Assembly: GCF_018873765.1 (NCBI RefSeq)
Contig: NC_057920.1
Coordinates: forward strand, 16,257,307-16,321,306
DNA: 64,000 nucleotides
From: Telopea speciosissima
Lineage: Eukaryota; Streptophyta; Magnoliopsida; Proteales; Proteaceae
Direction of reading: 5' to 3'
Every line of letters begins with the position of its first letter. The first letter of the stretch is position 1. This document shows, one piece after another, positions 38,797 to 61,927 of this stretch. The notes beneath the pieces are model-generated. The model searched no databases. It had not been told where the DNA came from and worked only from the letters and a program-made list of their open reading frames with translations. The position numbers and the translations under genes were made by a program.

Positions 38797-39491
38797 TTTA
38801 CTTTATTATGTTATTTGTGCTTGTATGCCTCATCTTCTCCGGCCACCATGACAAGTTCAAATTCAAGTTCCACAACCTCCTCCTTAACCTATAGGATTCA
38901 CCCTTTTGTCTTCATCATTGCTGTTGCAACTCTATCATTTTTTTTTTTAAAGCAAGGAAATTATGGCGTATGATACATTTCTACTTGTTTAATACTTCAA
39001 CTTATAAAAATCATATTTTTTGTTGTTTCTGAAGTTTAATATGTAAAGTTGTAAACACACATTTTTTTATTCAAACGTTTGGATATGCATATTATACACG
39101 TATTTACTATGTGTTTGACATAACAAACACACATCTGAGAGTAAGAGTAGGGTGTACTGCAACTGAAGAGAAGTTTTTAGGATATAAATGGATCGATTTG
39201 CTCTTTTCATGGTAGCTCCATTTTTTTGTGAAAGCTTGTTCATTGGCCAGCTAATTTGAACGGCTTGCTTGAGTAGGCTAGCAGTGTATGCACTGTGGTT
39301 GAAACTTGGAAGGACAGGAGATGTCCCCATGTTTACAGTGTCTGAGGTTGGTTTGTGTGGGGTGCGTGTGTGATTGAATGCAGGACCTCACATGACAAGA
39401 CCACATGCCAAGGCATGAAAGGAGAAGAAAAGACATGAAAATAATAAGAACTTTCAAGAATATGATTCAAACGAATAGGTGGAAGAACTTA

Positions 39492-39746
39492 GGATTTGGA
39501 TCCTCTACCGTCGGGGTTGAGTGGCCATCGTGCTGCACTCAACTCCCAGGTTGCCACGTTGGATTTCATATTGATCCACTGGTTAAAAGACGAGCTCAAT
39601 TCAAAATTCAAAACTATCACTCACAATTGCAAATGATTGGAGCTCATCTATCAACCATTGGATCTGCATGGAATCCGATGTGGTGGCTTGGGAGTTGAGC
39701 GCAGCAAGATGGCCACTAAACCCTAGGCTGCAAAGGATCCAAATCC
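39492..39746. repeat. Fold-back MITE, family D, copy 1, exact 9-bp target duplication
   Basis: The ends GGATTTGGATCCTCTACCG and GCAAAGGATCCAAATCC pair, with inner GTTGAGTGGCCATC / GATGGCCACTAAACCC and CTCAACTCCCAGG / GGGAGTTGAG. AAGAACTTA flanks it exactly (39483-39491 and 39747-39755). Relatives are at 49230-49484 and 60707-60946. Confidence 0.88.
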
Positions 39747-40123
39747 AAGAACTTAACTTTATTGGGCAAATAGTCAATTAATAAGCCACCTTGCCGCGTA
39801 AATTTCCAATCGTTTCAATACTGGCCTCCCCAATATATGGATACCAACATCTATATGGACTGAGTATGAGAATCCATTCACCGAGGAGGATTCATATGCA
39901 CGCAGAGGGTATGGGAAGGTATTTTGGAGAACATACTGAAACCTAGGAGGGGTTTGTGAACTCTAGGAGAGGGGGAATCCATTCACTTAGTGGTGGGGAG
40001 AAAGCCCTATATTTGTTGTAGTTCTGCCCCACAGTCTCAATTCATAATGGTTTTATTGTTTCTGATCATCGATGGAATCCATGCCATCCATAGTGATTCT
40101 TGTAAAACAAAATGTAGCATTTC

Positions 40124-40260
40124 AACAACTACCTAGTGCAATTGGTGATGTTATAGTGCGCTAAGCCCACACTCACCAGGAAGTCTCGAATCCGAACCTC
40201 CTAGCTGTTACCTTCTCCCCCCCCCTTCTACAAAGTAGGTACCTATCAAAAAAAAAAAAA
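40124..40260 (+). mobile_element. SINE with poly(A) tail, copy 1
   Basis: The sequence runs from AACTACCTAGTGCAATTGG through a TCTCGAATCCGAACCTCC segment (B-box-like) and a C-run to CCTATC plus an A-run of about 13. TAGCATTTC precedes it (40115-40123). The second copy (49873-50004) has the same word on both sides. No coding capacity. It is a short tRNA-related SINE by structure. Confidence 0.65.
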
Positions 40261-40836
40261 GAATTTCTCAATTGCGCTTCAGCCCTTGTAGATTTGATGA
40301 ACAAAACACCCTACGAAGCAAACTGGGTGTGTGTGCTACTCCTGTGCCAGACGTAAGAATGCATAAACTAATCGTCATGCCGCCTTGAAAATTCTGCCAT
40401 TCCATGGGATGCAGATATCATTTTGCGCAGACCTATGTCTGGGTGTAGGGGTAGCACACAGTACTCGGCTACCTATTTGAATGCAAATGATGTTTACGGG
40501 ATACCTACAAAAAGAGAGAGAGAGAGAGGACAAAGAAAAAATAATAATAGCGATAACAGAGGTTTCTCTCCGTGAATGGATAGGAAACAGAGTGAGAGAG
40601 AGAGAGAGAGAGAGAAAAGAAAAAAAAAAAATAATAGATAGAACAGAGGTTTCTCTTCGTAAATGGATAGGAAACAAAGTGTGTGAGAGAGAGAGAGAGA
40701 GATAGAGATAGGAAAAAGAAACAAAATAATAATAGATAGAACGGAGGAGGAGAAGGTAGTCGAAGAGGAATCCTTTTCAATGGCCTAAACAAATATCATA
40801 ACATATAATATATTTTTTTCAGCAAATAAAATATGA

Positions 40837-40911
40837 GCGTCTGTGGCCAATCACACGATTGTGTTGAAGGCTTAAGCCTTGGTATTGTAGGTTCGACTCC
40901 CACCAGGCGCA
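40837..40911 (+). repeat. tRNA-like module 1 (75 nt)
   Basis: The 5' GCGTCTG pairs with 3' CAGGCGC (one G-T pair). The T arm region GTAGG TTCGACT CCCAC is nearly intact, with a B-box GGTTCGACTCC. The D and anticodon arms are not tRNA-like. Confidence 0.6.
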
Positions 40912-41282
40912 TAATTTTTAGTGGTTATACACAAAACGGGTACTTCTAGAATATGGGCCTTGTCCTTGCAGGAATCGACAGTTCGGCCTGTGTCCTCTCC
41001 TTGGTCACAGGATCTATGTTTTCCTATAGCTGAGGCAAATTTTCTTGTTTGCAATAAATTTCGCTTTACTATAAAATAAAATAAAAAGAATATTTTCATT
41101 ACCACTATTATTTTTTTCCCTCCCCCTCTCTCCCTCTATTATAGAAATCCTTTAAACATCTCATTAAATTAAACCACCTAGTAATTAAATGGTGATTTAA
41201 GTTAACGATTTTTAGTGCAAGCTTTAAATAATTTGAGCACGATTATAGTTGGGACTCGTTAGCTACCTATTTAAGTGAAAAT

Positions 41283-41760
41283 GATGTTTAATGGATTTGT
41301 TGGTGGGATTAATAAAAAAATAAGGAAACCAATCTCTTTCCATAATCACATGGGGAAAAAGGAAACCATACCCTACCCAAATGCACAAAGGATTAGATCG
41401 ATTTGGGCTTTTCACATCCCATGGTTGCCATTTGCCAAACAAAATTAACTATAACAGAGTTAGTTAGATTTGCTAACCAGAAGAGCCTTAAGTATTGTTC
41501 CTCCTCCAGATATAACGGTTCTACATCCAATGAGCACGCAATGAAGAATGCTCTTGAATCATTTTGGTGCAGACTGGGTTCTCCAAGTCAAAAACTCCGA
41601 TCTTCAAAAACCAAGGTTTCACCAAATCCAAATTCCCCAACTCATGATGTCAAGCAAGGGAACAAAAAAAGAGAGAGAATCGACCATTAGAGGGAAACTA
41701 GATGATTCGTCCCTGGCCCCTCCCCTCTGGTGTCAATTTATATGGAAACTCTAAAAGAAC
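41283..41760 (-). promoter_or_regulatory. Array block with minus-strand promoter and ORF start, copy 1
   Basis: On the minus strand an ATATAAATTGACACC box (about 41733-41747) is followed by ATGGTCGATTC and Ser/Leu-rich codons, then sequence related to the longer ORF at 54023-54532. Here the frame is short and broken. Part of the repeated array. Confidence 0.4.
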
Positions 41761-42225
41761 CCCCTCTTCAGTCCTTGTGAGAGTCTGACACTCTCTATCC
41801 TTCCAGTTGACTCAAATTCCGATTTCCTGTCCTAATGTGCTTCTAATTATTGAAGACGTAGAATCTCAAAGGCAAATAAAACAATTATTTATTTTTCTTT
41901 TAATGGACAAATAAAATGGTGCACCAAATCCTTTAAATAAAATAAATTAATTACTTTAATTAGCAAACCAATCCCAACATAAAATTATATGATAACCCTT
42001 TATAATGTACCAACCCTCCACTAATCAACATCATCATTATAGAATATAGGGCATGTATTTAAAAACTACCAAACCTAATTCCATAGCACATGTTCATATT
42101 AGAAGTTTGGTGTATGTGTTTGGAATCGCAAAATTCGATTAAAAACTTTAATCAAAAGCATACATGCAATTAATATTTTATGTGAAAATAATATTTGCAA
42201 ACCATTTCATAAACTGAACAGGATC

Positions 42226-42408
42226 CTAATCCTCATTCGACCATCCATAGACAATTTCTCTCTTGATATTGCCAATGGAGTAGTGGAAACCTTGTTGGAC
42301 AACTCTTTCACTCACCAGATGATTACTCGCACCTAGCATTTCAGCTTTGGCCCTTAGGACCTTAGTCACTGATATACCAAAGACCACATTCGTATCTCGC
42401 AGTGACAA
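42226..42408 (-). pseudogene. Array ORF block C, copy 1 (unknown protein fragment)
   Basis: Minus-strand translation includes VLRAKAEMLGASNHLVSERV and QQGFHYSIGNIKREIVYGWS. The same frame is readable in the blocks near 46460-46675, 52850-53000 and 55140-55330, suggesting descent from a real exon. I do not recognise the parent protein. The fragment has no proper start. Confidence 0.45.
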
Positions 42409-43663
42409 GGCCCTCTTAGGTGTAGGGTCTCAGTGACAAATGTCTATCCCTTACCAACAACTGACAATAACACAAGCGGGAATTGAAACGAAAATATTCT
42501 TCACCAACTCACACATGTATGTGCTCGCATTCGAACTCAGACATCAAAAAAGTAGGAACACCCAATGCGACAACCATATGATAAGGGTGTCCAGCCCAAA
42601 CCCTAATCATAACTCCAATTTAAAGTCAAAATTGTAGCTTACTGCCACGATTGTCTTGCGGGCTTAAGCCATGGTATCCAGCTGACTCGAATTCTAACTT
42701 CCTGTCCAAGGGTACATATAATTAATATTTTATGTGAAAATAATATTTGCAAACCATTTCTTAAACGGAACAAGATCATGATTCTCATCTGACCAATTTC
42801 AGGCATTTTTTCTCTTGTTGTCCACAAGATGATTGCCTACACCCAACATAATAGTTGTGGCCCTTAGGACCTTAGTCATTGATACCAAAATACGCATTCG
42901 TATCTCGCAGTAATAAGGATCTCTCAGGTGTAGGGTCTCGGTAACAAATGTCTATCCCTTACCAACAACTAGCAGTAACACATGCAAGAATTGAAACGAA
43001 AATATTTTTCACCAACTCAAAGATGTATGTGCTTGCATTCAAACTCTAACATCAACATACTTAGGAATACCCAATGCGACAACCATCTGATAAGGGTATC
43101 CAATCCAAACCCTAATTGTGACTCCAATTTAAAGTCAAAACTGTAGCTCATTGCCACAAATTTCTTGTGGGCATAAGCCTTAGTATCGTGGGTTCAACTA
43201 CCACTGGGGTTCTAATTTTTAGTGGTTATACCCAAAACAAGTACTTCTACAATCCAGTCGGATTTTTTCTTTATCACTATTATTTTCTCCCCCCAGCACT
43301 CTCTCTCTCTCTTTCTCTCCCTTTTAGAAATTCACTAAACATCTCGTTAACTTAAATAACCTTGTACTTAAACGATGATTTAAGTTAACGATTTGTAGGT
43401 GAAGCTTTAAAAAGTTTGGACACGATTATAGTTAGAACTCATTAGCTACCTATTTGAGTGCAAACGATGTTTAATGGATTCCTATAAAAGAGGGAGACAG
43501 TGAAAAAAAGAAAAAATAATAATAATAGATAGAACGGAGGTTTCTCTCCGTGAATGGATAGGAAACGTAGCATAAGGAGAAGGTAGTCGGAGAGGAATCC
43601 TTTTCAATGGCATAGACAAATATCATAACATATAATATTTTTTTTCTAGCAAAGAAAATATGA

Positions 43664-43738
43664 GTGCCTGTAGCCAATCCCACGATTGTGTTGAAGGCTT
43701 AAGCCTTGGTATTGTGGGTTCAACTCCCACCAGCCGCA
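43664..43738 (+). repeat. tRNA-like module 2 (75 nt)
   Basis: GTGCCTG and CAGCCGC pair imperfectly. The T-arm stem GTGGG/CCCAC is intact with loop TTCAACT, so the B-box is altered. Confidence 0.55.
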
Positions 43739-44372
43739 AAATTTTTAGTGGTTATACACAAAACAGGAACTTCTACAATCCAATAGAATATTTTCATTAC
43801 CACTACTAGTTTTTTTCCCTCCCCCCTCTCTCCCTCCACTATAGAAATCCATTAAACATCTCATTAACTTAAATAACCTTGTAATTAACTAGTGATTTAA
43901 GTTAACAATTTTCAGTGCAAGCTTTAAATAGTTTGGACACATTTATAGTTGGGACTCGTTAGCTACCTATTTGAGTGAAAATGAAGTTTAATGGATTTGT
44001 TGGTGGGACTAATAAAAAAAAGAGGAAACCAATCTCTTTCCATAATCATTTGGGGAGAAAGGAAACCATCTCATACCCGAATGCGCAAAGGATTAGATAG
44101 ATTAGGGCTTTTCACATCCCATGGTTGCCAAACAAAATTAACAATAACAACGTTAGTTAGATTTGCTAACTTGAAGAGCCTCAAGTGTTGCTCCTCCTCC
44201 AGATATAATGGTTATACCTTCAATGAGCACACAGAAAACTAATATTGAACCCTTTTGGTGCATCCTAAGTTCTCCAAGTCAAAAACTCCAATCTTCAAAA
44301 CTAGGGTTTCACCAAATCCAAATTCTCCAACTCTTGATGTTGAGCTAGGGAACAAAAGAAAAAAAAAAAAGA

Positions 44373-44376
<4 letters not shown>

Positions 44377-44419
<43 letters not shown>

Positions 44420-44420
44420 A
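44377..44420. repeat. (TA)n-(GA)n microsatellite
   Basis: A TA run passes directly into a GA run inside the array block. The corresponding place in other units has only a GA run. Confidence 0.85.
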
Positions 44421-45051
44421 TCGACCATGGGAACAGAGCCAAAAAATTCGTCCTTGTAATTAAACTGTGATATAAGTTATCGATTTTTAGATGAAGCTTT
44501 AAAAAGTTTTTTTTTTTTTTGATAATAGGAAATAAATTAAAGATTAAAATATACAGAGTTTGTTATACATAAAAGAGTGCCTATATAGGAGTAACTTGTT
44601 ACTTTATTTGGTGTCATCGAAACAAAGTGATTCATGGAATTATTAAGATTGATCCACTTTGGGTCATTGACAGTGTCTCCAAATGGTTGACGAACTTAAG
44701 GGTTTATCCTCCCACCCAAATCTTGTTTAAATAATATTGATCCTATTTATGTAGAGCCCAAATTGCATGTATGTGTGTTTAACACAATACCATCTTCAAA
44801 AAGTTGGGACATGATAATAGTTGGAAATCGTTAGCTACCGATTTGAGTGCAAATGATGTTTAATGAATTCCTACAAAAGAGGGAGAGAGACAGAGGAAAA
44901 AGAAAAAAATAATAATTGAGATAACGGAGGTTTCTCTCCGTGAATGGATAGGAAACGTGCCACAAGGAGAAGGCAGTTGGAGAGGAATCCTTTTTAATGG
45001 CCTAGACAAATATCATAGAATATAATATTTTTTTCAGCAAAGAAAATATGA

Positions 45052-45126
45052 GCGCCTGTAGCCAATCCCTCGGTTGTGTTGAAGGCTTAAGCCTTGGTAT
45101 TGTGGGTTCGACTCCCACCAGGCGCA
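45052..45126 (+). repeat. tRNA-like module 3 (75 nt)
   Basis: Perfect 7-bp acceptor-type stem GCGCCTG/CAGGCGC, perfect T arm GTGGG TTCGACT CCCAC and a terminal A. This is the best-preserved ends-plus-T-arm copy. A C-run of about 14 follows at 45209-45222. Confidence 0.65.
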
Positions 45127-46029
45127 TAATTTTTAGTGGTTATACACAAAATAGGTACTTCTACAATCCAGTAGAATATTTTCATTACCACTATTATTTT
45201 CTCCCTTCCTCCCCCCCCCCCCACTCTCTCCCTCTATTATAGAAATCCATTAAACATTTAATTAACTTAAATCACCTTGTAATTAAACGGTGATTGAAGT
45301 TAACTATTTTTAGTACAAGCATTAAAATGTTTGGACACAATTATATTTGGGACTTGTTAGCTATCTATTTGAGTGAAAATGATGTTTAATGGATATGTTG
45401 GTGGGAATAATAAAATATAAGGAAATTGACCTCTTTCCATAATCACATAGGAAGAAATGAAACCATCCCATATGCGAATGCACAAAGGAATAGATCAATT
45501 CTGGCTACTTGCATCCCATGGTTGTTAAACAAAATTAACCAGAACAGAGTTAGTTAGATTTGATAACCTGAAGAGCCTCAAGTGTTGGTCCTCCTCCAAA
45601 TATAATGGTTCTACCTCCAATGAGCACGCAAGGAAAAATGTTTTTTTTTTTTTTTGGATAGGTAAGCAGAGAAGAATGTTCTTGAATCTTTCTTAGTGCA
45701 GCCTGGGTTCTCCAAGTCAAAAACTTCAATCTTCAAAAGCTAGGGTTTCACCAAATCCAAATTCTCTAACTCTTGATGTTGAGTAAGGGAACAAAAGAAG
45801 AGAGAGAGAGAGCGAATCGGCCATGGAGGGGAGCCAGAAAATTCGTCCCTGGCCCCTTCCTCTCTAGTGTCTATTTATATAGGAGCTCTAAGAGAGCCCC
45901 CTCTTCAGTCCTTGTGACAGTCTGACACTCTCTAATCTCTATACTTCTAGCTGACTCGAATTCTAACTTCGTGTCGTAGCGTGCCTCTAATTAGGGTAGA
46001 AGCAGAATCTCAAAGGGAAAATAAAATAA

Positions 46030-46167
46030 GGGAGAATGTTCTCTGTGCCGAAGCGCAGGCTGCGCTGAGGCACATGGGCCTGCCACTCAGGGGGGGCAGG
46101 GTGGTCATTGCGCCCACCCCCATGTGCCTAGGCACAGCCTACACTGCGGCACAAAGAACAACGCCCC
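46030..46167. repeat. Fold-back MITE, family A, exact 9-bp target duplication and known empty site
   Basis: The ends GGGAGAATGTTCTCTGTGCC and GCGGCACAAAGAACAACGCC pair. ATAAAATAA flanks it exactly (46021-46029 and 46168-46176). The equivalent places in other array units (about 48330 and 54655) read AAAATAAAATAATTATTA without an insert, so they are empty sites that confirm both ends. Confidence 0.95.
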
Positions 46168-46459
46168 ATAAAATAATTATTTATGTTTCTTTTAATGGAC
46201 AAATAAAAAGTTCACCATATCCATCAAATAAAATAAACTAATTATTTTAATTAACAAACCAATCCCAAAATAAAATTATATAATAACCCTTTATTAATTA
46301 TCACCCTCCACTAATCAACATCATCATTATGGAATCTAGGGCATGTATTTAAATACTGTCAATCCCCATACCATAGCACATGATTAGAATTTCTGCGTAC
46401 GTGTTCGAAATTGTAAAATTCAATTAAAAAATTTAATCAAAAGACATATAATTAATATT

Positions 46460-46675
46460 TTATGTGAAAATAATATTTGCAATCCATTTCTTAAACGAAA
46501 CAGGATCATGATTCTCAAATGACCAATTACAAGCATTTTCTCTCTTAATGTTCCCAATCGGGTAGTGGAAACCTTGTTGGGCGACTCTTTCGCTCACAAG
46601 ATGATTTCCTGCACCCAGCATATCAGTTAGGACCTTAGTCATTGAGATACCAAAGTACGCATTCATACTTTGCAA
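46460..46675 (-). pseudogene. Array ORF block C, longest readable copy
   Basis: A 71-codon open frame on the minus strand contains NAYFGISMTKVLTDMLGAGN, HLVSERVAQQGFHYPIGNIK and WSFENHDPVSFKKWIANIIF then stop. Four other copies preserve the same frame to differing degrees. It may be a terminal exon of an ancestral gene captured by the array. No family was recognised, and no splice-linked partner was identified. Confidence 0.45.
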
Positions 46676-47409
46676 TAATAAAGCTCTCTCAGGTGTAGGG
46701 TCTTGGTGACAAGTGTCTATCCCTTACCAACAACTAACAGTAACACATGCGGGACTTGAAACGAAAATATTTTTCCTCAAGTCACACATGTATGTGTGCT
46801 AGCATTTGAACTCTAACATCAACATACCTAGGAACACCCTATGCATCGACCATATGATAAGGATGTCCAGCCCAAACCCTAATCGTGACTCCAATTTAAA
46901 GTCAAAATTGTAGCTCACTACCAACATTGTCTTGTGGGCATAAGCCTTGGTATCGTAGATTCGAATACCACCGGGGTTATAATTATTAGTGTTTATACCC
47001 ACAAGAAGTACTTATACAATCAGGTACTTTTTTCTTTACCATTATTATTTTCTTCCCCCCCCCCTTTATCTATTATAAAAATCCACTAAATATCTCGTTA
47101 ACTTGAATCACCTTGTAATTAAACGGTGACTTAAGTTAACAATTTTTTGGTGACGCTTTAAAAAGTTTGGACATGATTATAATTGGAACTTGTTAACTAC
47201 CTATTTGAGTGCAAATGATGTCTAATGGATTCCTACAAAAGAGGGAGAGAGAGGAAAAAGAAAAAATAATAATAAAGAGGAGGTAGGTTTCTCTTCGTGA
47301 ATGGATAGGATACGTGGCATACGGAGAAGGTAGTCGGAGAGGAATCCTTTTCAATGCATAGACAAATATCATAACATATAATATTTTTTTTCTAGCAAAG
47401 AAAATATGA

Positions 47410-47484
47410 GTGCCAGTAGCCAATCCCACGATTGTGTTGAAGGCTTGAGCCTTGGTATTGTGGGTTCGACTCCCACCAAGCACA
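47410..47484 (+). repeat. tRNA-like module 4 (75 nt)
   Basis: The stem GTGCCAG/CAAGCAC keeps five of seven pairs. The second pair has changed from C-G to T-A on both sides. The T arm is intact with GGTTCGACTCC. Confidence 0.55.
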
Positions 47485-48448
47485 AAATTTTTAGTGGTTA
47501 TACACAAAACAGGTACTTCTACAATCCAATAGAATATTTTCATTACCACTATTAGTTTTTTTCCCTCCCCCTCTCTCCCTCCATTATAGAAATCCATTAA
47601 ATATCTCATTAACTTAAATCACCTTGTAATTAACTAGTGATTTAAGTTACCGCTTTTTAGTGCAAACTTTAAAATGTTTGGACAAGATTATAGTTGGGAC
47701 GCATTAACTACCTATTTGATTGAAAATGATATTTAATGGATTTGTTGTTTGGAATAATCCAAAATAAGGAAACCGATCTCTTTCTATAATCACATGGGGA
47801 GAAAGGAAACCAGCCCATACGTGAATGCATAAAGGAATAGACCGATTCCAATTTTTCGCATCCCATGGTTGCCAAATAAAATTAACCATAACAAAGTTAA
47901 TTAGATTCACTAACCTAAAAAGCCTAAAGTGTTGTTCCTCTTCCAGATATAATGGTTCTACCTCGAATGAGCATGCAAGGATGAATGTTCTTGAACCTTC
48001 TTGGTGCAGCTTGGGTTCTACAAGTCAAAAACTCCAATCTTAAAAATCCATGGTTTCACCAAATGCAAATTCTCCAACTCTTGATGTTTTAGCATGGGAA
48101 CAAAAGAAGAGAGGGAGAGAGAGAGAGAGAGAAAGAGTCGGCAATGGGAGGGGAACCAGAAAATTCGTCTTAGCTCCACCCCTCTGGTGTCTATTTATAT
48201 GGGAGTTCAAAAAGAGCCCCCTCTAAGGTCCTTGTGAGAGTCTGACACTCTCTATCCTCCCAGTGGACTCAAATTCCAACTCTCTATCCTAACGTGTTTT
48301 TCTAGTTAGGGAAGAAGCAAAATCTCATAGGCAAAATAAAATAATTATTAATTTTTCTTTTAACAGACAAATAAAATATTGCACCATATCCATTAAAGAA
48401 AATAAATTCTTTATTCTAATTAGCAATAGAATCCCAATATAAAATTAT

Positions 48449-48601
48449 GGGAGAAAGTTCTCTGTCCGGGAGTATTGCCTATGCCAACACTCCCATGAGT
48501 CTCTCTCTCCCCTCCCCATTTGAAAAAACACCTCTACCCCCTTGTTTTGAGGAGGAGAGAGATAGACCCTGCGCCACACTCCCGGACAAAAACTACTTCC
48601 C
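48449..48601. repeat. Fold-back MITE, family B, exact 9-bp target duplication
   Basis: The ends GGGAGAAAGTTCTCTGTCCG and CGGACAAAAACTACTTCCC pair. TAAAATTAT flanks it exactly (48440-48448 and 48602-48610). The unit near 46270 has the uninterrupted AATAAAATTATATAATAACC, an empty site. Confidence 0.95.
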
Positions 48602-49229
48602 TAAAATTATATAATAACGCTTTATTATGTACCGACCTTCCACTAATCAACATCATCATTATGGAATCTAGGGCATGTATTTAAATACTGTTAATCCTCA
48701 TTCCATAGCATATGTTCAATTAGTATTTTTGTGTACGTGTTATGAATCACCAAATTCGATTAAAAACTTTAACCAAAATTGTACATATAATTAATATTTT
48801 ATGTGAAAACAATATTTGCAAACTATTTCTTGGATCATGATTCTCATCCAACTATCCACAAGCAATTTCTTTCTTGATGTTCCCAATCGGGTAGTGGAAA
48901 CCTTGTTGGGCAACTCTTTCACTCACACGATGATTGCCTGCACCCAACATATCAGCTTTGGTCCTTTGGACCTTAGTCATTGATATACAAAAGTAGATTC
49001 CGTATGCCCTGTGGTTGAAACTTGGAAGGACAGGAGTTGTCTCCTTGTTTAAAGTGTCTGAGGTTGTTTATGGAGATTTTGTGTGGGATGCGTGTGTAAT
49101 TGAATGCAGGACCTCACATGACAAGACCACATGCCAAGGCATGAAAGGAGAAGAAGAGGGAGGAGAAGAAAAGGCATGAAAATAAGAACTTTCAAGAATA
49201 TGATTCAAACGAATAGGTAGAAGAACTTG

Positions 49230-49484
49230 GGATTTGGATCCTCTGCGGTCTGGGGTTGAGCGGCCATCATGTTGCGCTCAACTCCCAGGTAGCCATGTCA
49301 GATTCCATTTCGATCCAATGGTTATAGACGAACTTAATTCAAAATTCCAAATTTTCACTCAAAATTGAAAATGGTTAGAGCTCATCTATCAACCATTGGA
49401 TCTGCATGGAATCCGATGTGGCTGCCTGGGAGTTGAGCATAGCATGATGGCCACTAAACCCCAGGCCGCAAAGGATGCAAATCT
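49230..49484. repeat. Fold-back MITE, family D, copy 2
   Basis: It is 255 bp, the same length as the copy at 39492-39746, with flanks AAGAACTTG and AAGAACTTA. It is the same insertion event carried along by the segmental duplication. Confidence 0.88.
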
Positions 49485-49872
49485 AAGAACTTAACTTCTT
49501 GGGCAAATAGTCAATTAATAAGCCACTTTGCCGAGTAAATTTCCAATCATAATAGTACTGGATTCCCAAGATATGGATAGCAACATCTATGTGGACCGAG
49601 TTTTCCTTCAGCCATAGTGAATGAGAATCCATTCACCAAGGCTGGTTCACACGCAGAGGGTATTGGAGGGTATTTTGGAGAACATATTGAAACCTAGGAG
49701 GAGTTTGTGAACCCAAGGAGGGTGGGAATCCAATCACCCAGTGGTGGGAAGAAAGTCCTATATTTATTGTAGTTTTGCCCCGGTCTCAATTTATAATGGT
49801 TTTATTGTTTTTTATCATTGATGGAATCCATGCCATCCATAGTGATTCTTGTAAAACAAAATGTAGCATTTC

Positions 49873-50004
49873 AACAACTACCTAGTGCAATTGGTGATGC
49901 TGTGGTGCGCTAAACCCACACTCAACCAGAGGTCTCGAATTCGAACCTCCTAGTTGTTGGCTTCCCCCCCCCCTTCTACAGAGTAGGTACCTATCAAAAA
50001 AAAT
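49873..50004 (+). mobile_element. SINE with poly(A) tail, copy 2, 9-bp direct flanks
   Basis: The same sequence as 40124-40260. TAGCATTTC lies on both sides (49864-49872 and 50005-50013). The A-run here is shorter, about 8. Confidence 0.68.
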
Positions 50005-50260
50005 TAGCATTTCTTAGTTGCGCTTCAGCCCTTGTAGATTTGATCAACAAAACATCCTACGAAGCCAACTGGGTGCATGCACTACTCCTGTGCCAAACAC
50101 AGGAATGCGTAAACTAATCGTCGTGCCACCTCAAAATTTTCGTCGTTCCATGGGATGTAGAGATCATTTCGCGCACCCTTGTGTTTAGGCATAGGGCTAG
50201 CACACAATACTCGACTACCTATTTGAATGCAACTGATGTTTAATGGATACCTACAAAAGT

Positions 50261-50265
<5 letters not shown>

Positions 50266-50291
<26 letters not shown>

Positions 50292-50400
50292 GAAATAATA
50301 ATAATAATAATAATAGTAGCGATAACAAAGGTTTCTCTCCGTGAATGGATAGGAAACAGAGAGAGAGAGAGAGAGAGGAAAAAGAAAATAATAATAATAG
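50266..50400. repeat. GT/GA and AAT microsatellite cluster
   Basis: GTGTGT, GAGAGA and ATAATA runs lie ahead of duplicated AGGTTTCTCTCC segments (about 50329 and 50410). The matching place in copy 1 (40510-40700) has a similar but differently expanded cluster. Confidence 0.8.
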
Positions 50401-50535
50401 ATAGAACAGAGGTTTCTCTCCATGAATGGATAGGAAACGTGGCATAAGGAGAGGGTAGTCGGAGAGGAATCCTTTTTAATGACCTAGACAAATATCATAA
50501 CATATAATATTTTTTTTCTAGCAAAGAAAATATGA

Positions 50536-50610
50536 GCGCCTATAGCCAATGCCACGATTGTGTTGAAGGCTTAAGCCTTGATATTGTGGGTTCGACTCCC
50601 ACCAGGCGCA
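50536..50610 (+). repeat. tRNA-like module 5 (75 nt)
   Basis: GCGCCTA/CAGGCGC stem with one mismatch; T arm intact with B-box GGTTCGACTCC; terminal A. Confidence 0.6.
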
Positions 50611-51887
50611 TAATTTTTAGTGGTTATACACAAAACTAGAACTTCTACAATCCAATAGAATATTTTCATTACCACTATTATTTTTTCCCTCCCCCCTCTC
50701 TCCCTCTATTATATAAATACATTAAACATTTTATTAACTTAAATCACCTTGTAATTTAACAGTGATTTAAGTTAACGATTTTTAGTGCAAGCTTTAAAAA
50801 GTTTGGACAAGATTATAGTTGGGACTCGTTAGCTACCTATTTGAGTGAAAATGATTTTTAATGGATTTGTTGGTGGGACTAATAAAAAATAAGGAAACCA
50901 ATCTCTTTCCATAATCACTTGGGGAGAAAGGAAACCATCCCATACCTAAATGCGCAAAGGATTAGATCGATTTGGGTTTTTCACATCCGATGGTTGCCAA
51001 ACAAAATTATTAACAATAGAGTTAGTCAGATTTGCTAACTTGAAGAGCCTCAAGTGTTGCTCCTCCTCCAGATATAATGGTTCTACCTCCAATGAGCACA
51101 CATGGAAGAATAACATTGAACCCTTCTGGTGCATCTTAGGTTCTCCAAGTCAAAAACTCCAATCATCAAAATCTAGGGTTTCACCAAATCCAAATTCTCC
51201 AACTCTTGATGTTGAACTAGGGAACAAAAGAAAAGAGAGAGAGAGAGAGAATGGACAATGGGAGTGGAGCCAGAAAATTTGTCCTTGTAATTAAACGGTA
51301 TCTTAAGTTATCGATTTTTAGGTGAAGCTTTAAAAAGTTTTTTATTTCTTATTTGTTATTTTTTATAATAGGAAATAAATTAAAGATTAAAATATACAAA
51401 GTGTGTTATACACAAAAGAGTGCCTATATAGGAGTATGCTTTTACATAACATATTACTTTATTTGGTGTCATCGAAAGACCATTCAAGGAGTTGCTAAGA
51501 TAGATCCACTCTAGGTAATTTACAGATGGTTGATGGACTTAAGGGTTTATCCTCCCACCCAAATCTTGTTTAAATAATATTGATCCTATTTATGTAGATC
51601 CCAAATTGCCTGTATGTGTGTTTAACAAAATACCAACTTCAAAAAGTTGAGAGATGATTATAGTTGGAAATCGTTAGCTACCTATTTGAGTGCAAATGAT
51701 GTTTAATGAATTCCTATAAAAGAGAGAGAGACAAAGGGAAAAAAAATAATTATTAAGATAACAGAGGTTTCTCTCCGTAAATGGATAGGAAACGTGGCAT
51801 AAGGAGAAGGCAGTTAGAGAGGAATCCCTTTCAATGGCCTAGACAAATATCATAACATATAATATTTTTTTCAGCAAAGAAATATGA

Positions 51888-51962
51888 GCGCCTGTAGCCA
51901 ATCCCACAGTTGTGTTGAAGGCTTAAGCCTTCGTATTGTGGGTTCGACTCCCACCAGGCACA
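51888..51962 (+). repeat. tRNA-like module 6 (75 nt)
   Basis: GCGCCTG/CAGGCAC stem with one C-A mismatch; T arm intact; terminal A. Confidence 0.6.
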
Positions 51963-52400
51963 TAATTTTTAGTGGTTATACACAAAATAGGTACTTCTAC
52001 AATCCAGTAGAATATTTTCATTACCACTATTATTTTCTTCCCCCCCCCCCTCCCTCCCTCCCTCCCTCCATTATAGAAATCCATTAAACATCTAATTAAC
52101 TTAAAACACCTTGTAATTAAACGGTGATTGAAGTTAACTATTTTTAGTACAAGCTTTAAAAAGTTTGGACACGATTATATTTGAGACTCGTTAGCTACTA
52201 ATTGAGTGAAAAGGATGTTTAATGGATATGTTGGTGGGAATAATCAAAAATAAGAAAATCGATCTCTTTCCATAATCACATGGGAAGAAATGACACCATC
52301 CCATACGCGAATGCGTAAAGGAATAGATAGATTCTGGCTTTTCGCATCCCATGGTTGTCAAACAAAATTAACCATAACAAAGTTAATTAGATTTGATAAC

Positions 52401-52720
52401 CTAGAGAGCCTCGAGTGTTGTTCCTTCTTCAGATATAATGGTTCTACCTCCAATTAGCACGCAGGAATTTTTTTTTTTTTGATAGGTAAGCAGGGAAGAA
52501 TGTTCTTGAACCCTTCTTGGTGCAGCATGTGTTCTCCAATTCAAAAACTTCGATAGCTTCACCAAATCCAAATTCTCTAACTCTTGATGTTGAGCAAGGA
52601 AAAAAAGAAGAGAGAGAGAGAGAGAATTGGCCATGGGAGGGGAGCTAGAAAATTTGTCCCTAGCCCCTCCTCTTTGGTTTCTATTTATATGGGAGCTCTA
52701 AGAGAGCCCCTCTTCAGTCC
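52401..52720 (-). promoter_or_regulatory. Array block with minus-strand TATA box and ORF start
   Basis: On the minus strand CCCATATAAATAGAAACC (about 52680-52697) lies 50-60 bases ahead of CCATGGCC, a good plant start context. The frame reads MANSLSLSLLFFLAQHQELE then NLDLVKL and is soon lost, partly because of a T-run near 52470-52480. Equivalent boxes lie at about 45875, 48199 and 54518 (minus). Confidence 0.45.
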
Positions 52721-53726
52721 TTGTGAGAGTTTGACACTCTCTAGTTTCTATACTTCCAGTTGACTCAAATTCTAACTTCCTGTCCAAGGGTACATATAAT
52801 TAATATTTTGTGTGAAAATAATATTTCCAAACCATTTCTTAAACGGAACAGGATCATGATTCTCATCTGACCAATTTCAGGCATTTTCTCCCTTAACGTT
52901 CCCAATCGGGTAGTGGAAACCTTGTCGGGCGACTCTTTCACTCACAAGATGATTGCCTACACCCAACATAATAGTTGTAGCCCTTAGGACCTTAGTCATT
53001 GATATACCAAAGTACGCATTCGTATCTCATAGTAATAAGGATCTCTCAAGTGTAGGGTCTCGGTGACAAATGTCTAGCCCTTACCAACAACTAGCAATAA
53101 CACATGCAGAAATTGAAACGAAAACATTTTTCGCCAATTCACACATTTATGTGCTCACATTCGAACTCTAACATCAACACACCTAGGACTACCCAATGCG
53201 ACGACCATATGATAAGGGTGTCCAGTCCAAACCCTAATCATGACTCCAATTTAAAGTCAAAATTGTAGCTCATTGCCACAACTTTCTTGTGGTTTATAAG
53301 CCTTAGTATTGTGGGTTCGACTTCCACTGGGGTTATAATTTTTCGCGGTTATACCCAAAACAAGTACTTTTACAATCCATTACACTTTTTTCCTTACCAC
53401 TATTATTTTCTCCCCCCCCCTATCTGTTATAAAAATCCACTAAATATCTCGTTAACATAAATCACCTAGTAATTAAACAGCGACTTACGTTAACGATATT
53501 TAGGTGAACCTTTAAAAAGTAGGGAGATGATTATAGTTAGAACTTGTTAGCTACCTATTTTGAGTGCAAACGATGTGTAATGGATAATAATAGAGAGAAG
53601 GGAGGTATCTCTCCGTGAATGGATAGGATACATGGCATAAAGAGAAGGTACTTGAAGATGAATCCTTTTCTATGCCATAAACAAATATCATAACATATAA
53701 TATTTTTTCCAGCAAAGAAGATATGA

Positions 53727-53801
53727 GCGCCTGTAGCCAATCCCACGATTGTGTTGAAGGCTTAAGCCTTGGTATTGTGGGTTCGACTCCCACCAAGCGC
53801 A
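53727..53801 (+). repeat. tRNA-like module 7 (75 nt)
   Basis: GCGCCTG/CAAGCGC stem with one mismatch; T arm intact with GGTTCGACTCC; terminal A. Confidence 0.6.
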
Positions 53802-54022
53802 AAATTTTTAGTGGTTATACACAAAACAGGTACTTCTACAATCCAATAGAATATTTTTATTACCACTATTAGTTTTTTTCCCTCCCCCCCTCTCTCCCTC
53901 CATTATAGAAATCCATTAAACATCTCATTAACTTAAATAACCTTGTATTTAACTAGTGATTTAAGTTACCGCTTTTTAGTGCAAACTTTAACATGTTTGG
54001 ACAAGATTATAGTTGGGACTCA

Positions 54023-54532
54023 TTAACTACCTATTTGATTGAAAATGATGTTTAATGGATTTGTTGTTGGGAATAATCCAAAATAAGGAAACCGATCTCT
54101 TTCTATAATCACATGGGGAGAAAGGAAACCAACCCATACCCGAATGTGCAAAAGATTAGATAGATTAGGGCTTTTTACATCCCATGGTTGCCAAACAAAA
54201 TTAACCATAACAAAGTTACTTAGATTTGCTAACCTAAAAAGCCTAAAGTGTTGTTCCTCTTCTAGATATAATGATTCTACCTCGAATGAACACGCAAGGA
54301 AGAATGTTCTTGAACCCTTCTTGGTGCAGCCTGGGTTCTCCAAGTCAAAAACTCCAATCTTAAAAAACCATGGTTTCACCAAATCCAAATTCTCCAACTC
54401 TTGATGTTGAGCATAGGAACAAAAGGAGAGAGAGAGTGATGAATCTACATTAGAGAGAGAGAGAGAGAAAGAGTCGGACATGGAAGGGGAGCAAGAAAAT
54501 TCATCCCTGGCGTCTATTATATGGGAGTTCAA
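54023..54532 (-). CDS. Longest open frame of the array, unknown protein, doubtful gene
   Basis: A 169-codon open frame on the minus strand. An in-frame ATG at CCATGTCCGACTC gives MSDSFSLSLSNVDSSLSLSF, then QHQELENLDLVKPWFFKIGV, FDLENPGCTKKGS, YLEEEQHFRLFRLANLSNF, VMVNFVWQPWDVKSPN and a tail ending NIIFNQIGS. A degenerate TATA-like box (CATATAATAGACG) lies about 45 bases upstream of that ATG. The second half is also open in the copies near 47704-47910 and 50946-51134, which argues for an ancestral coding region. The Ser/Leu start comes from a GA microsatellite. I recognise no domain. It is more likely a repeat-borne gene fragment than an active gene. Confidence 0.35.
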   Translation of the reverse strand: MNSHIIDARDEFSCSPSMSDSFSLSLSNVDSSLSLSFCSYAQHQELENLDLVKPWFFKIGVFDLENPGCTKKGSRTFFLACSFEVESLYLEEEQHFRLFRLANLSNFVMVNFVWQPWDVKSPNLSNLLHIRVWVGFLSPHVIIERDRFPYFGLFPTTNPLNIIFNQIGS

Positions 54533-54771
54533 AAAGAACCCCCTCTAAGATCCTTGTCAGAGTCTGACACTGTCTATCCTCCCAGCGGACTCAAATTCCA
54601 ACTCTTTGTCCTAGCGTGCTTTTCTAGTTACGGAAGAAGCATAATCTCCAAGGCAAAATAAAATAATTATTAATTTTTCTTTTAACGGACAAATAAAATA
54701 TTGCACCATATCCATTAAAGAAAAGAAATTTATTTATTCTAATTAGCAATACAATCCCAATATAAAATTAT

Positions 54772-54907
54772 GGGAGAAAGTTCTCTGTCCCATGAGTCTA
54801 TCTCTCTCCTCCCCATTTGAAAAGACACCTCTACTCCCTTGTTTTAAGGAGGAGAGAGATACATTGGAGTAATGACGTAGGCCACTCCCGGACAGAAACT
54901 ACTTCCC
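54772..54907. repeat. Fold-back MITE, family B, duplicated insertion
   Basis: It lies at the same array position as 48449-48601, with flanks TAAAATTAT and TAAACTTAT. It has lost an internal segment of the left arm. The insertion therefore predates the duplication that produced these two units. Confidence 0.92.
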
Positions 54908-55757
54908 TAAACTTATATAATAACCCTTTATTATGTACCAATTCTCCACTAATCAACATCATCATTATAGAATGTAGGCCATGTATTTAAATACTATCAA
55001 TCCCCATTCCATAGCACATGATCAATTAGAATTTTTGTGTACGTGTTCGGAATCGCCAAATTCAATTAGAAACTATAATCAAAATCATACATATAATTAA
55101 TATTTTGTGTGAAAATAATATTTGCAACCTATTTCTTGGAAGGAACAGGATCATGATTCTCATCCGACCATCCATAAACAATTTCTCTCTTGATGTTCCC
55201 AATCGGGTAGTGGAAACTTTGTTGGGCGACTCTTTAACTCACAAGATGATTGGCTACACCCAGCATATCAGCTTTGGCCCTTCGGACCTTAATCATTGAT
55301 ATACAAAAGTATGCATTCGTATCTCGCAGTGAACGCTCTCTCAAGTGTTGGGTCTCGATGACAAGTGTTTGTCCCTTACCAACAACTAGCAGTAACACAT
55401 ACGAGAATTGAAATGAAAATATTTTTCTCCAATTCACACATGTATGTGTGCTCGCATTCGAACTCTAACATCAACATACCTAGGAATACCCAATGCGACG
55501 ACTATATGATAAGGGTGTCTAGCCCAAACCTTACTCGTGACTCCAATTTAAAGTCAAAATTGTAGCTCACTGCCACGATTGTCTTGCGGGCTTAAGTCTT
55601 GGTATCGTGGGTTCTACTCCCATCGGGCATAAAATTTTTAGTGGTTACACCCAAAACAGGTACTTCTCCTATCTAGTAGACTTTTTTCTTTATCACTAGT
55701 ATTTTCTCCCCCCCCCCCTTCTCTTCCTCTATTTATAGAAATCCATTAAACAATTCA

Positions 55758-55799
55758 TTAACTTAAATCACCGTTTAATTACAAGGTGATTTAAGTTAA
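55758..55799. repeat. Palindrome with inverted 12-nt spacer
   Basis: The arms TTAACTTAAATCACC and GGTGATTTAAGTTAA are perfect. The spacer is GTTTAATTACAA. In all other copies (near 41160, 43345, 43870, 45255, 47100, 47610, 50735, 52095, 53450, 53930 and 57200) it is TTGTAATTAAAC or a close variant, the exact reverse complement. Confidence 0.9.
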
Positions 55800-56246
55800 C
55801 AATTTTTAGGTGAAGCTTTAAAAAGTTGGGACATGATTATAGTTTGAACTCATTAGCTACCTATTTGAGTTCAAATGATGTTTAATGGATTCCTATAAAT
55901 GAGGGAGAGAGAGGAGAAAGAGGAAAAAAATTTTAGGAAATGTGGCATAAAGAGAAGGTACTTAGAGAGGAATCCTTTTCAATGGCCTAGACAAATATCA
56001 TAACATAAAATATTTTTCCCAGCAAAAAAAATATGAGACGATTGTGTTGAAGGCTTAAGCCTCGGTATTTCTCTCCGTTAATGGATAGGAAACATGACAC
56101 AAATAGAAGGTAGTTGGAGAGGTATCCTCTTCAATGGCCTAGACAAATATATGTTATCTTATAATATTTTCCAGTAAATAAGAATATGAGCGCTTGTAGC
56201 TCAATGCCACGATTGTCTCGAGAGCTAAGCCTAAACAGGTACTTCT

Positions 56247-57068
56247 TAAGGGTGTCAATTTGGGACCAGAACTGGGAACCGTCCCTACACCGTCCTGCAA
56301 AAACCCGGTACCGGACCGTCCCATTAGTAAATGGGACGGTACTAGTATCTGATTTTGGTACCAAATGATAAATGGGACGGGACGGTTCTGGGACGGGATT
56401 CCCAATGGTACCAGTACCGAAATACCAATTAGGTACCGGATGGTACCGAAACTACTAGTACCGTTTAAAAAGAAAAGAGTATATAAGATCATTTTTTTTA
56501 TAAAAAAAAAAAGGGTATAAGAATTACGACTCATTAGGGTTTCACTAATTGCCTTTTGAATACGACGAGGAACAACAGGTCAACAGCCATAGTTTGAAGT
56601 CTCTCCTCACAGAACCTGCTACAGTGCTACTCCCTCAACCAACTACATCTACCAGGTTCTTCCTTTTAGAACAACGAGATTCTTCCATTTTGTAGGACTT
56701 CTCTAGATTTAAAAAAATGAGAAGTTTATTACATGTGATCTTAGGGAGTTTGAAGAAGTAAAACTATGATTTCATAATTTAAGTTACTTTATAAAAAACA
56801 GTAGACAACTTAGATTTCATGATAGTGAAAAAATTCCACAACACTAATAAACCCATCTCGTTAGAAACAATTAAACTTCTTCTCCCTTTTTCTACAGTGC
56901 CTAAAACCGTTTAAGAACCTGTACCATTCCGTCCCGCTAGTAATCGGGATTGGGATCTAGGTTTGGTCCCGTTAACTAAATGGGACGGTACTGGGATTGG
57001 CACTTTTGGTACCGGTACCGGTACCGTCCCAACCCTAATACCGGGAACTGTCCCAATTGACACCCTTA
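56247..57068. mobile_element. Non-autonomous hAT-type element in the array
   Basis: The ends TAAGGGTGTCAATTTGGGAC and GTCCCAATTGACACCCTTA are inverted repeats. Near both ends GGTACCG, GGGACGG and CCGTCCC words are packed on both strands, as in Ac/Ds-like subterminal regions. The flanks GTACTTCT (56239-56246) and GTACTCAC (57069-57076) start alike, and the array consensus GGTACTTCTACAATCC is the empty site. It has no transposase reading frame; the AT-rich centre (56470-56880) is non-coding. Confidence 0.85.
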
Positions 57069-57889
57069 GTACTCACAATCCAGTAAACTTTTTTATACCA
57101 CTATTATTTTCTTTTCCCCTCCCCCCCCCCCCCCCCTCTCTCTCCCTCTATCCCTCTATCCCTCTATCACAGAAACTCATTAAATATCTTGTTAACTTAA
57201 ATCACCTTGTAATTAAACGGTGATTTACGTTAACAATTTTTAGGTGAAACTTTAAATGTTGGAACTTGTTAGCTACCAATTTGACTGGAAATGACGTTTA
57301 ATGGATTAAAGCGGGAGACAAGGAAAGATGAAAAAGGGAACAAAAAAAAAGAATAGAGAAGGGAGGTTTCTCTGTGTGAATGGATAAGAAATGTGACATA
57401 AAGAGAAGGTAGTTGGAGAGGTATCGTCTTCAATGGCCTAGACAAATATATGTTATCTTATAATATTTTTTCCAGCAAATAAGAATATTAGCGCCTGTAG
57501 CTCAATGCCACAATTTTTCCTTTCCCTACCCCATCTCCCTATCACAATCAATTCACTCAGTCTTTCCCAAATGATCACTACATAGGCCAACTATAAGCTA
57601 AGAGGGAAGGCAAAGACAAGCCAACAATCGGGAGAGAGGGGTGCCTTTTTTGCACAATATGCAATCCAAGAGAGTCGATTCCTTAACCTCCTTTTTGGCA
57701 CAATATGCAATCCAGGAGAGTCGATCCCTACATTCAACTTGCAACCAACAACCAACCGAGCTAATGGTTGTCTGCTACTTAAAATTCATTCACTAAAATG
57801 ATTGCAGTAATACCTGAAATAATGTTTCCAAATATCATAATTGAAAGAGCAAGAAAAAAAAAGAAAAAGAAAATTACCTTGTTTCCATC

Positions 57890-61214: not shown

Positions 61215-61330
61215 CTGTGTTTTTCACTACTAAATCTTTATCTCACTTCAGTTCAAAGAAACTTACAATTTCTCTGGTTCTTTCTTTATAATTGTTGTTT
61301 CAGTGAGATAGAGAGAGGAAGAAGGGCATG

Positions 61331-61927
61331 ATGGGTCGCCGAAGGATAGAGATGAAGAAGATAGATAACGAGAATTATCTACACGTTACCTTCTCAAAAC
61401 GCCGACCTGTACTTTTCAATATGGCAAGCGAGCTCAGTATTGTGTGTGGTGCTGAGATAGCCATTCTCGTCTTCTCACCTTGGGGCAATCTCTACTCCTT
61501 TGGAAGCCCTAGTGTGACCTCCGTCGTAGATAAGTTTCTGAACCAACATGGTCAGCCATCGGTAGCCACCAGTGCCACCCATAGGGCTAGAATTAATGAG
61601 CTATACGGACAGAACGTGGACCTGGTGAATGATCTGGAAAAGGCGAAGGAGCGATCCGAGGAAGTCAAGAAATGGTTAGAAGAAGTGAAGCAAGGTGAAG
61701 CATGGTGGGAAGCACCTATCCAAGATATGGGATTGCTTGAGCTTCAGCGCTTGGAGGTGTGTATGGAGGTGTTTAAGAAGAATGTGGTCAAACGGGCTGA
61801 TGAGCTACTGGCCAAATATGCTGTTGTTCCCTCGCCTTCCTTAACCATGAATCCAGTGGGTGTGGTGGAACCTTTGGCAACTGCTAGGCCAAACCTCAAT
61901 CCAAAGGAATGGCGGTTATGGTTTTAG
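61331..61927 (+). CDS. Type I (M-alpha, AGL62-like) MADS-box transcription factor
   Basis: Intronless, 198 residues, as usual for M-alpha genes, which act mainly in female gametophyte and endosperm. The MADS domain covers 1-60: MGRRRIEMKKIDNENYLHVT, FSKRRPVLFNMASELSIVCG, AEIAILVFSPWGNLYSFGSP. Residues 85-125 are a coiled coil, and QGEAWWEAPIQDMGLLELQR (121-140) is the family's second-half signature. Canonical M-alpha proteins read KRRSGLFKKASEL where this one has KRRPVLFNMASEL, so Gly27, Lys30 and Lys31 are replaced by Val, Asn and Met. Those residues lie at the start of the DNA-binding helix, so DNA affinity may be reduced or changed. I chose the second of two adjacent ATGs, since MGR begins the family; an MMGR start is equally possible. 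A MITE begins 24 bases after the stop codon. Confidence 0.9.
   Translation: MGRRRIEMKKIDNENYLHVTFSKRRPVLFNMASELSIVCGAEIAILVFSPWGNLYSFGSPSVTSVVDKFLNQHGQPSVATSATHRARINELYGQNVDLVNDLEKAKERSEEVKKWLEEVKQGEAWWEAPIQDMGLLELQRLEVCMEVFKKNVVKRADELLAKYAVVPSPSLTMNPVGVVEPLATARPNLNPKEWRLWF

Follow-up and report, generated by a model that had tools for sequence, protein, structure and literature searches.

Tandem clusters of tRNA-Pro, tRNA-Tyr-Ser and tRNA-Ile have been reported in many plants (PMC11700998, PMC12652284), while the tRNA-Cys cluster on chromosome 5 of Arabidopsis thaliana consists of 0.4-kb tandem units and comprises a pseudogene and putative Helitrons (PMC10701932). A tRNA-like sequence also resides inside the long terminal repeat (LTR) of the Helenus terminal-repeat retrotransposons in miniature (TRIMs), and tandem arrays have been recorded for zebrafish LTR-11_DR (PMC10886601) and for Cassandra (PMC7215508). 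All statements on these sources refer to the parts of them considered here. In this work, we describe a tandem array in the genome of Telopea speciosissima (823 Mb, 1287 contigs, referred to by C-numbers) that is built around a tRNA-like module of 75 nt. It is located in a window, i.e., the whole stretch of DNA analysed, of 64,000 nt (C5:16257307-16321306); positions without a contig are those of the window. We consider it, at a probability of roughly 0.8, to be an ordinary, old local tandem array in which a tRNA-like relic, a DNA transposon with terminal inverted repeats (TIRs) and the LTR of a Copia retrotransposon have been joined and re-amplified.

The array resembles the A. thaliana tRNA-Cys cluster, as far as the latter is described in the part considered (PMC10701932), in that tRNA sequences occur in short tandem units (~0.5 kb inferred for the array; 0.4 kb there), with a pseudogene, transposon marks and a copy number that changes by local duplication. 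Unlike in that cluster, no copy in the array is recognised as a functional tRNA, and most of the unit is Copia LTR and TIR-transposon sequence. Of the two hallmarks of plant tandem tRNA clusters, the array thus has the tandem units that each carry a tRNA-like sequence, and lacks the functional tRNA genes within them. The surveys of angiosperm tRNA gene clusters (PMC11700998, PMC12652284) are based on predicted tRNA genes and would probably miss modules of this kind; in the examined parts of these surveys, no match to the module is described. With the Helenus TRIMs (PMC10886601, in the part considered), the array has in common that a tRNA-like sequence is linked with LTRs and that arrays have been reported, but its module lies outside the LTR and does not occur in the 20 dispersed LTRs that were examined. 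A description of the array itself was not found in the open-access literature searched.

Results

Layout of the Array and tRNA-Likeness of the Modules

The seven full modules are named F1 to F7, the degenerate copies of 76 nt d1 to d4, and loci fetched from the genome carry L-numbers (Table 1). All seven 75-nt modules of the original prediction, made from the sequence alone, agree in start, end and length with our data, and a profile of them recovered each one with nhmmer (86.7-91.6 bits; E <= 3.4e-26), together with the four degenerate copies and three module fragments (at 42641, 56036 and 56190). Self-alignment of the window reveals tandem and higher-order repeats, with pieces of at least 800 bp at 77-87% identity, which supports the proposal that the modules travel together in units of a tandem array. 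A unit of 2.4-2.6 kb throughout was not borne out: the best-supported period is ~2.3 kb (offsets of 2297, 2331 and 2362) and the full modules are spaced by 1.35 to 3.13 kb. After each module, a C-tract and a palindrome (inverted repeat) follow in fixed order, as had been noted; in F1 only, ~131 extra bp (40953-41083) are present between the module and the C-tract.

A query of 281 bp, which runs from the final bases of the F3 module into the block downstream of it, yielded 23 rows, 20 of them in the array; the other three are short, come from two sites (C3 and C8) and represent TIR-transposon sequence. Since the query was found only in the array bar these short transposon matches, the unit is not distributed like a dispersed element, although absence of a match in the genome search does not establish rarity. 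Direct matches cover 70.3% of the region 40470-57515, where the LTR accounts for 43.5%, the TIR transposon for 15.8% and the tRNA-like cores for 11.0%.

The module is tRNA-derived. Four of the seven F modules reach the gathering score of the Rfam tRNA family (RF00005), two others match below it (E up to 0.5) and the module at 47410 does not match; in the three alignments of F modules shown, the middle arms are unpaired or inserted. ARAGORN, run with the bacterial code, called no tRNA in the window. A GCGCCTG/CAGGCGC-type stem had been claimed for all seven modules, but, as read from the alignment and with G-U allowed, the acceptor stem is fully paired in only two (40837 and 45052). In the F modules, therefore, neither a cloverleaf with D and anticodon arms that is recognised as a tRNA nor, in general, the intact acceptor stem of a functional tRNA gene is found. 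A parent tRNA gene that combines a canonical D arm with the T arm of the module was sought with the exact pattern TAGCTCAGTTGG..GTGGGTTCGANTCCCAC (one D arm form), and the genome holds no match to it.

Antisense to modules F3 and F5 (minus strand, 45052-45127 and 50536-50611), there are sub-threshold matches to the Rfam model of the Plastid-ycf2 5′ untranslated region RNA (RF04354), which span the whole 75-nt model at 23.7 and 25.7 bits (cut-off, 65.7) and probably reflect chance or a common tRNA-like shape. A hairpin RNA downstream of the module was also considered and rejected: the segment 45127-45200 folds (z -3.2), but the stem is weaker in some of the d copies.

The Copia and Transposon Components

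Most of the units were described as carrying a promoter-like box and reading frames on the minus strand. These are present, but they fall in the LTRs, truncated here, of a Copia retrotransposon with a high copy number. In all, truncated minus-strand LTRs occupy 12 intervals in the array. The 472 bp before d3 constitute a very common dispersed repeat with 1231 first-look candidates, 40 of which were scored; 36 of the resulting 41 rows are outside the array. Twenty of these 36 copies were fetched with their flanks (L008-L027), and all 20 align to the LTR part of the window (~54061-55565). One LTR edge, TGTTGG/CCAACA, is clean in L025, where TGTGGTATCAGAGCCA comes next on the minus strand; this primer-site-like sequence, seen in this copy only, would correspond to an initiator-Met primer site. 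The other edge of the family is ATCCAACA in most of the 20 copies, six of which share a continuation beyond it that is purine-rich on the other strand; in L015, RVT_2 (7.1e-21) and Pol_BBD (5.8e-6) domains adjoin such an LTR. The family thus displays the TG..CA ends, the primer site, the polypurine tract and the adjoining RVT_2 polymerase expected of Copia elements. The dispersed LTRs of the same genome (L008-L027) explain the minus-strand box and frames of the array, where the copies differ in being truncated and caught in tandem units. At the five junctions inspected in the array, the outer LTR end is absent and the LTR is fused to a d copy near module position 6.

For the open reading frames (ORFs) at 54023-54544, 47193-47618 and 56154-56579 (minus) and 50950-51294 (plus), Pfam provided no convincing match; a FilE_C match among the ORFs (0.017; 15.2 bits, cut-off 27) was taken as chance. 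We rejected the idea that the minus strand carries a family of tandem genes, for want of a convincing match and because the promoter box lies inside the LTR.

The palindrome, for its part, consists of the inner portion of a dispersed DNA transposon with long TIRs, which is probably MULE-like (Mutator-like element). Its right half and region x (the stretch before each F module) co-occur at loci on C3 and C8 (L028, L029). The C3 element is 1.16 kb end to end with inverted arms of 169 bp (82%), and opposite paired arms, i.e., long terminal inverted repeats, are also found at C8. Mutator-like elements typically generate target duplications of ~9 bp; at the C3 element, 7 of 9 bases agree in a candidate target duplication (one copy, by eye). 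A query with the arm of the C3 element resulted in 44 rows (40 of 132 candidates scored); 34 of these lie outside the array and are spread over C1-C8, C10 and C11. Both the palindrome and region x of the array are explained by this long-TIR transposon (L028, L030), whose left arm is truncated there. Most of the non-tRNA sequence is, then, Copia LTR and TIR transposon, both dispersed elsewhere, and the array is not the new composite non-autonomous element that it had been proposed to be.

Probable Origin of the Array

The F and d copies are separate lineages. In the tree of a ~330-bp block, the seven F and the four d copies are split at 100/100, and the split is therefore older than the re-amplification. 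After d1, d2 and d4, the palindrome continues with TAATGGATTCCTA[CT]AAA, much like in the C3 element (TAATGGATTTCTGTAAA), whereas all seven F copies read TAATGGAT[AT]TGTTG at the same point, i.e., they enter the LTR edge. Given this difference in the continuation of the palindrome, the LTR is located inside the right arm in the F lineage, while the arm is uninterrupted in most d copies. From the d-to-F distances in three intact pairs (467, 506 and 527 bp), the junction states of F and d and the split in the tree, we infer an ancestral tandem repeat of ~0.5 kb.

The following course of events is suggested by these data. The starting unit of ~0.5 kb probably consisted of ~185 bp of decayed tRNA-derived sequence (the module and its flanks) beside a truncated long-TIR transposon, the inner arms of which form the C/T-rich side as well as the palindrome. 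Next, a Copia LTR, in minus orientation, probably landed in the right arm of the transposon after TAATGGAT(T). A deletion would then have removed the outer end of the LTR (~100-130 bp), the spacer behind it and ~5 nt from the start of the tRNA-like copy that came next, leading to the d lineage. Unequal exchange presumably re-amplified a block of ~2.3 kb (LTR, d copy, spacer and F copy), in one case or more by a larger step that also copied 39286-40675 to 49002-50438.

Several observations weigh against this course of events. Some 30% of 40470-57515 is without a direct match, the largest pieces being 48996-50215 and 56137-57266. The junction of d3 is shorter and differs from those of d1, d2 and d4. 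A clean TGTTGG edge occurs in only two of 12 LTR copies inspected (L023 and L025), and a 5-bp target duplication of the LTR is invisible in the array because one LTR end is missing. The trees of the segments are partly in conflict (the LTR tree groups F2 with F5 and the core tree does not), and recombination therefore blurs the order of events. Lastly, the F copies have a slow-changing core, which simple decay does not predict (see below).

Table 1. Components of the array and their positions in the window.
Feature	Position	Strand	Remarks	Basis
F1, tRNA-like module (75 nt)	40837..40911	+	under Rfam gathering score	nhmmer
F2, tRNA-like module	43664..43738	+	B box altered (GGTTCAACTCC)	nhmmer
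F3, tRNA-like module	45052..45126	+	acceptor fully paired; top Rfam tRNA match (35.2 bits)	
F4, tRNA-like module	47410..47484	+		nhmmer
F5, tRNA-like module	50536..50610	+		nhmmer, Rfam
F6, tRNA-like module	51888..51962	+		nhmmer, Rfam
F7, tRNA-like module	53727..53801	+		nhmmer, Rfam
d1, degenerate tRNA-like copy	43137..43212	+	joined to truncated LTR end at ~ module position 6	
d2, degenerate tRNA-like copy	46904..46979	+		
d3, degenerate tRNA-like copy	53260..53335	+		
d4, degenerate tRNA-like copy	55556..55631	+		
Slow core of F3	45010..45195	+	-42..+69 around module; counterparts at other six F modules	boundaries set after seeing profiles
TIR arm (palindrome right half + region x)	43387..43609	.	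between d1 and F2	
TIR arm	44830..44999	.	before F3	
TIR arm	47138..47356	.	before F4	
TIR arm, doubled in tandem	50216..50481	.	before F5	
TIR arm	51673..51821	.	before F6	
TIR arm	53490..53678	.	before F7	
Truncated Copia LTR	41297..42637	-	after F1	matched by dispersed LTR copies
Copia LTR fragment	42712..43146	-		dispersed LTR copies
Copia LTR fragment	43997..44357	-	after F2	
Copia LTR	45396..46927 (45396-46029 + 46168-46927)	-	after F3	
Copia LTR	47742..48995 (47742-48448 + 48604-48995)	-	after F4	
Copia LTR fragment	50867..51270	-	after F5	
Copia LTR	52229..53268 (52229-52742 + 52790-53268)	-	after F6	
Copia LTR	54061..55565 (54061-54771 + 54910-55565)	-	after F7; minus-strand TATA-like box inside; overlapped by ORF 54023-54544	
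Duplicated block	49002..50438	+	84% to 39286-40675; sign of larger duplication including left flank of array	self-alignment

Within the duplicated block, there is an imperfect inverted repeat (49231-49483), with a similar one at 39492-39746, that shows sub-threshold Rfam matches to the plant microRNA precursors MIR5070, MIR5565 and MIR2863. Two stretches that start with a long T run (44510-44793 and ~45639-45673) break the repeat and are perhaps retroposed insertions. Outside of the array, the window features self-complementary stretches of 160-200 bp with 73-77% identity between strands, similar to miniature inverted-repeat transposable elements (271-467, 876-1055, 19786-19960, 24770-24927 and 29876-30056), a MADS-like frame at 61307-61927 (plus strand; SRF-TF, 2.8e-19) and a DUF5323 frame at 23835-24392 (minus strand; 4e-35).

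A Slow-Changing Core in the F Copies

Over 183 columns from -42 to +69 around the module, limits chosen after inspection of the profile, the mean difference among the F copies is 0.067 versus 0.138 in 516 flanking columns of transposable-element sequence (weighted segment means; C-tract excluded). None of 10000 column shuffles gave a value as low (1/10000 for transversions), and p is 0.004 when the core is compared with the palindrome alone. In every one of the 21 pairs of F copies, which share ancestry and are not independent, the core differs less than the LTR and less than the TIR-transposon part, with core/LTR ratios of 0.23-0.70. The four d copies show the opposite ranking: the module differs by 0.189, the next 67 columns by 0.169, the TIR-transposon part by 0.146 and the LTR by 0.122. 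Within the F core, the module (0.079) is not the slowest part, the AT-rich flanks being at 0.056 and 0.059, and 7 of the 14 acceptor positions vary among the F modules. The B box, GGTTCGANNCC, is intact in six of the seven F copies and in none of the four d copies; a run of five Ts directly follows the module in 7/7 F and 3/4 d copies.

As judged from sequence comparison, such a core leaves room for a tRNA-like RNA transcribed by RNA polymerase III (Pol III), without demonstrating it. The main rival is gene conversion, which would have homogenised the F cores whilst the d copies, too diverged, escaped; like the gene reading discussed below, it is compatible with the array history proposed above. 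F4-F7 are most similar around the module and the palindrome, the tree pairs F4-F7 and F3-F6, and the trees of core, palindrome and LTR differ in part, all of which is in line with conversion. The reduction is seen in all 21 pairs, however, and is not limited to a few of them. We regard conversion as a credible but tentative explanation of the slow core, at least as likely as selection on a gene.

Relatives of the Module Elsewhere in the Genome

A search with the 31-nt 3′ core of the module, allowing up to two mismatches, returned 193 genome matches, 149 of them forward and 44 reverse, against none in the control. Among the 100 of these 193 that were listed, four are in the C5 array, 95 on C7 (49.69-51.44 Mb) and C10 (27.43-27.91 Mb), and one is at C10:59.55 Mb. 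The C7 units are ~1.7 kb long and each contain two tRNA-like sequences, of 75 and 72 nt; compared with one unit, identity was 93-95% in 10 of 11 comparisons and 86% in the other. Loci L001, L002 and L004 (C7) as well as L003 and L007 (C10) all consist of such tandem units. In the fetched loci, ARAGORN called 15 of the 72-nt sequences as tRNAs (13 Pro, one Thr and one Ser), and many of those on C7 and C10 were called tRNA-Pro (AGG).

Two relatives, L005 (94 nt) and L006 (93 nt), occur at sites outside the arrays. A 181-bp query around L005 (50 rows; 40 of 66 candidates scored) matched in full to itself only, the other rows being the 3′ part of the module in the same arrays. L005 also carries a second, degenerate tRNA-like 3′ half (3043-3117; 15.0 bits) just upstream of the 94-nt sequence (3201-3294), and thus holds a tRNA-like pair outside any array seen.

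Between loci, the first 11 nt of the module are conserved at 9-11 positions and the last 40 nt at 31-40 positions, while the middle varies in length (72-94 nt in total). Ungapped 25-nt flanks mostly agree at 7-16 positions, with up to 23 for C7 versus C10 and 19 for L005 versus L006, and once gaps are allowed, the window and C7 resemble each other over a stretch that is limited to ~-26 to +17 around the module. The module ends are thus common to the C5 array and to those on C7 and C10, the units of which are otherwise unrelated to it. Seven module forms were folded. F3, the 75-nt form of C7 and L005 fold into an acceptor and a T arm (z -3.2 to -3.9), as do F5 (six acceptor pairs; z -3.2) and, weakly, the 72-nt form of C7 (z -1.4); F7 and L006 take other folds. 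In the pair counts of 19 distinct rows, 94.3% of the cells are paired and acceptor pair 3 appears as GC, GU, AU and UA, being unpaired in 4/19, a pattern that fits common descent with preservation of the top half. Counts that include the d copies were not used for covariation, as the first acceptor bases of these copies belong to the LTR. The 12 C7 units gave no clear signal of constraint (p 0.24 together, 0.13 and 0.57 apart); for the 3′ 40 nt, p was 0.026 for type 1 and 0.51 for type 2 (uncorrected).

Discussion

The F cores could be genes for a Pol III tRNA-like RNA with the acceptor/T-arm top half and an altered middle, kept by purifying selection amidst decaying transposon debris. The halved difference of the core relative to its flanks in every pair, the reversed order in the d copies, the contrast in B boxes and T runs between F and d, and the preservation of both module ends across loci would all be expected of such genes. 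Against it, the module is no slower than its AT-rich flanks, half of the acceptor positions vary and five of the seven acceptor stems are incompletely paired; of the three F modules folded, F7 adopts a different structure, the modules in the 12 C7 units are not slower than the background, and the pairs are non-independent with core limits set in hindsight. On balance, we deem the gene reading rather unlikely. The same, if anything more so, applies to its extension, based on sequence patterns, to a family of plant tRNA-like RNAs transcribed by Pol III (acceptor/T-arm top half, 5′ TGTAGC, downstream T run and a free middle, at total lengths of 72-94 nt) that would have been tandemly amplified in otherwise unrelated units on C5, C7 and C10 and would still be under selection in C5, where the cores outlast the transposons.

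The original prediction also offered an ordinary short interspersed element (SINE) caught in a tandem duplication. The tRNA derivation and the tandem duplication hold, but the identity as a SINE is not supported. One copy of a tRNA-headed SINE family might account for a tRNA-like head with A- and B-box-like segments, for the relatives at L005 and L006 and for the short gapped similarity between the window and C7. Nonetheless, 99 of the 100 listed matches of the 31-nt core are in arrays, instead of dispersed with a common body as in tRNA-derived SINEs, and no common body was found past the short flanks; L005 is matched in full only by itself. At the edges of the F and d copies, neither a 3′ tail nor a target-site duplication was seen by eye, although the copies are old and decay could mask them. 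We thus disfavour the SINE, which appears improbable. A Helenus-like TRIM, arranged as LTR-internal-LTR tandem arrays, is highly improbable even though LTRs alternate with tRNA-bearing blocks and tandem arrays of such elements are recorded (LTR-11_DR, PMC10886601; Cassandra, PMC7215508; in the parts considered), since the module lies outside the LTR and is not matched past its first ~9 nt by any of 20 dispersed LTRs, only the C5 array locus yielded the inter-LTR block, and the LTR edge that faces this block meets the palindrome (minus-strand CCAACA, then AATCCATTAAA in most F copies) and, by eye in the seven window copies, nothing like a primer site, while the LTR end on the polypurine-tract side is deleted in the array.

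The array, then, is real and ordinary in its parts: tandem duplication of a tRNA relic together with a TIR transposon and a Copia LTR can produce a modular array that resembles a new element. The residue, which is modestly interesting, is a tRNA-like top half common to arrays with unrelated units, along with a slow core in the better copies. The tRNA-Pro calls of ARAGORN in the C7 and C10 arrays could inflate annotated tRNA counts. If the slow core reflects real selection, it would point to tRNA-like RNAs in plants that tRNA predictors overlook because their middle arms are unlike those of tRNA.

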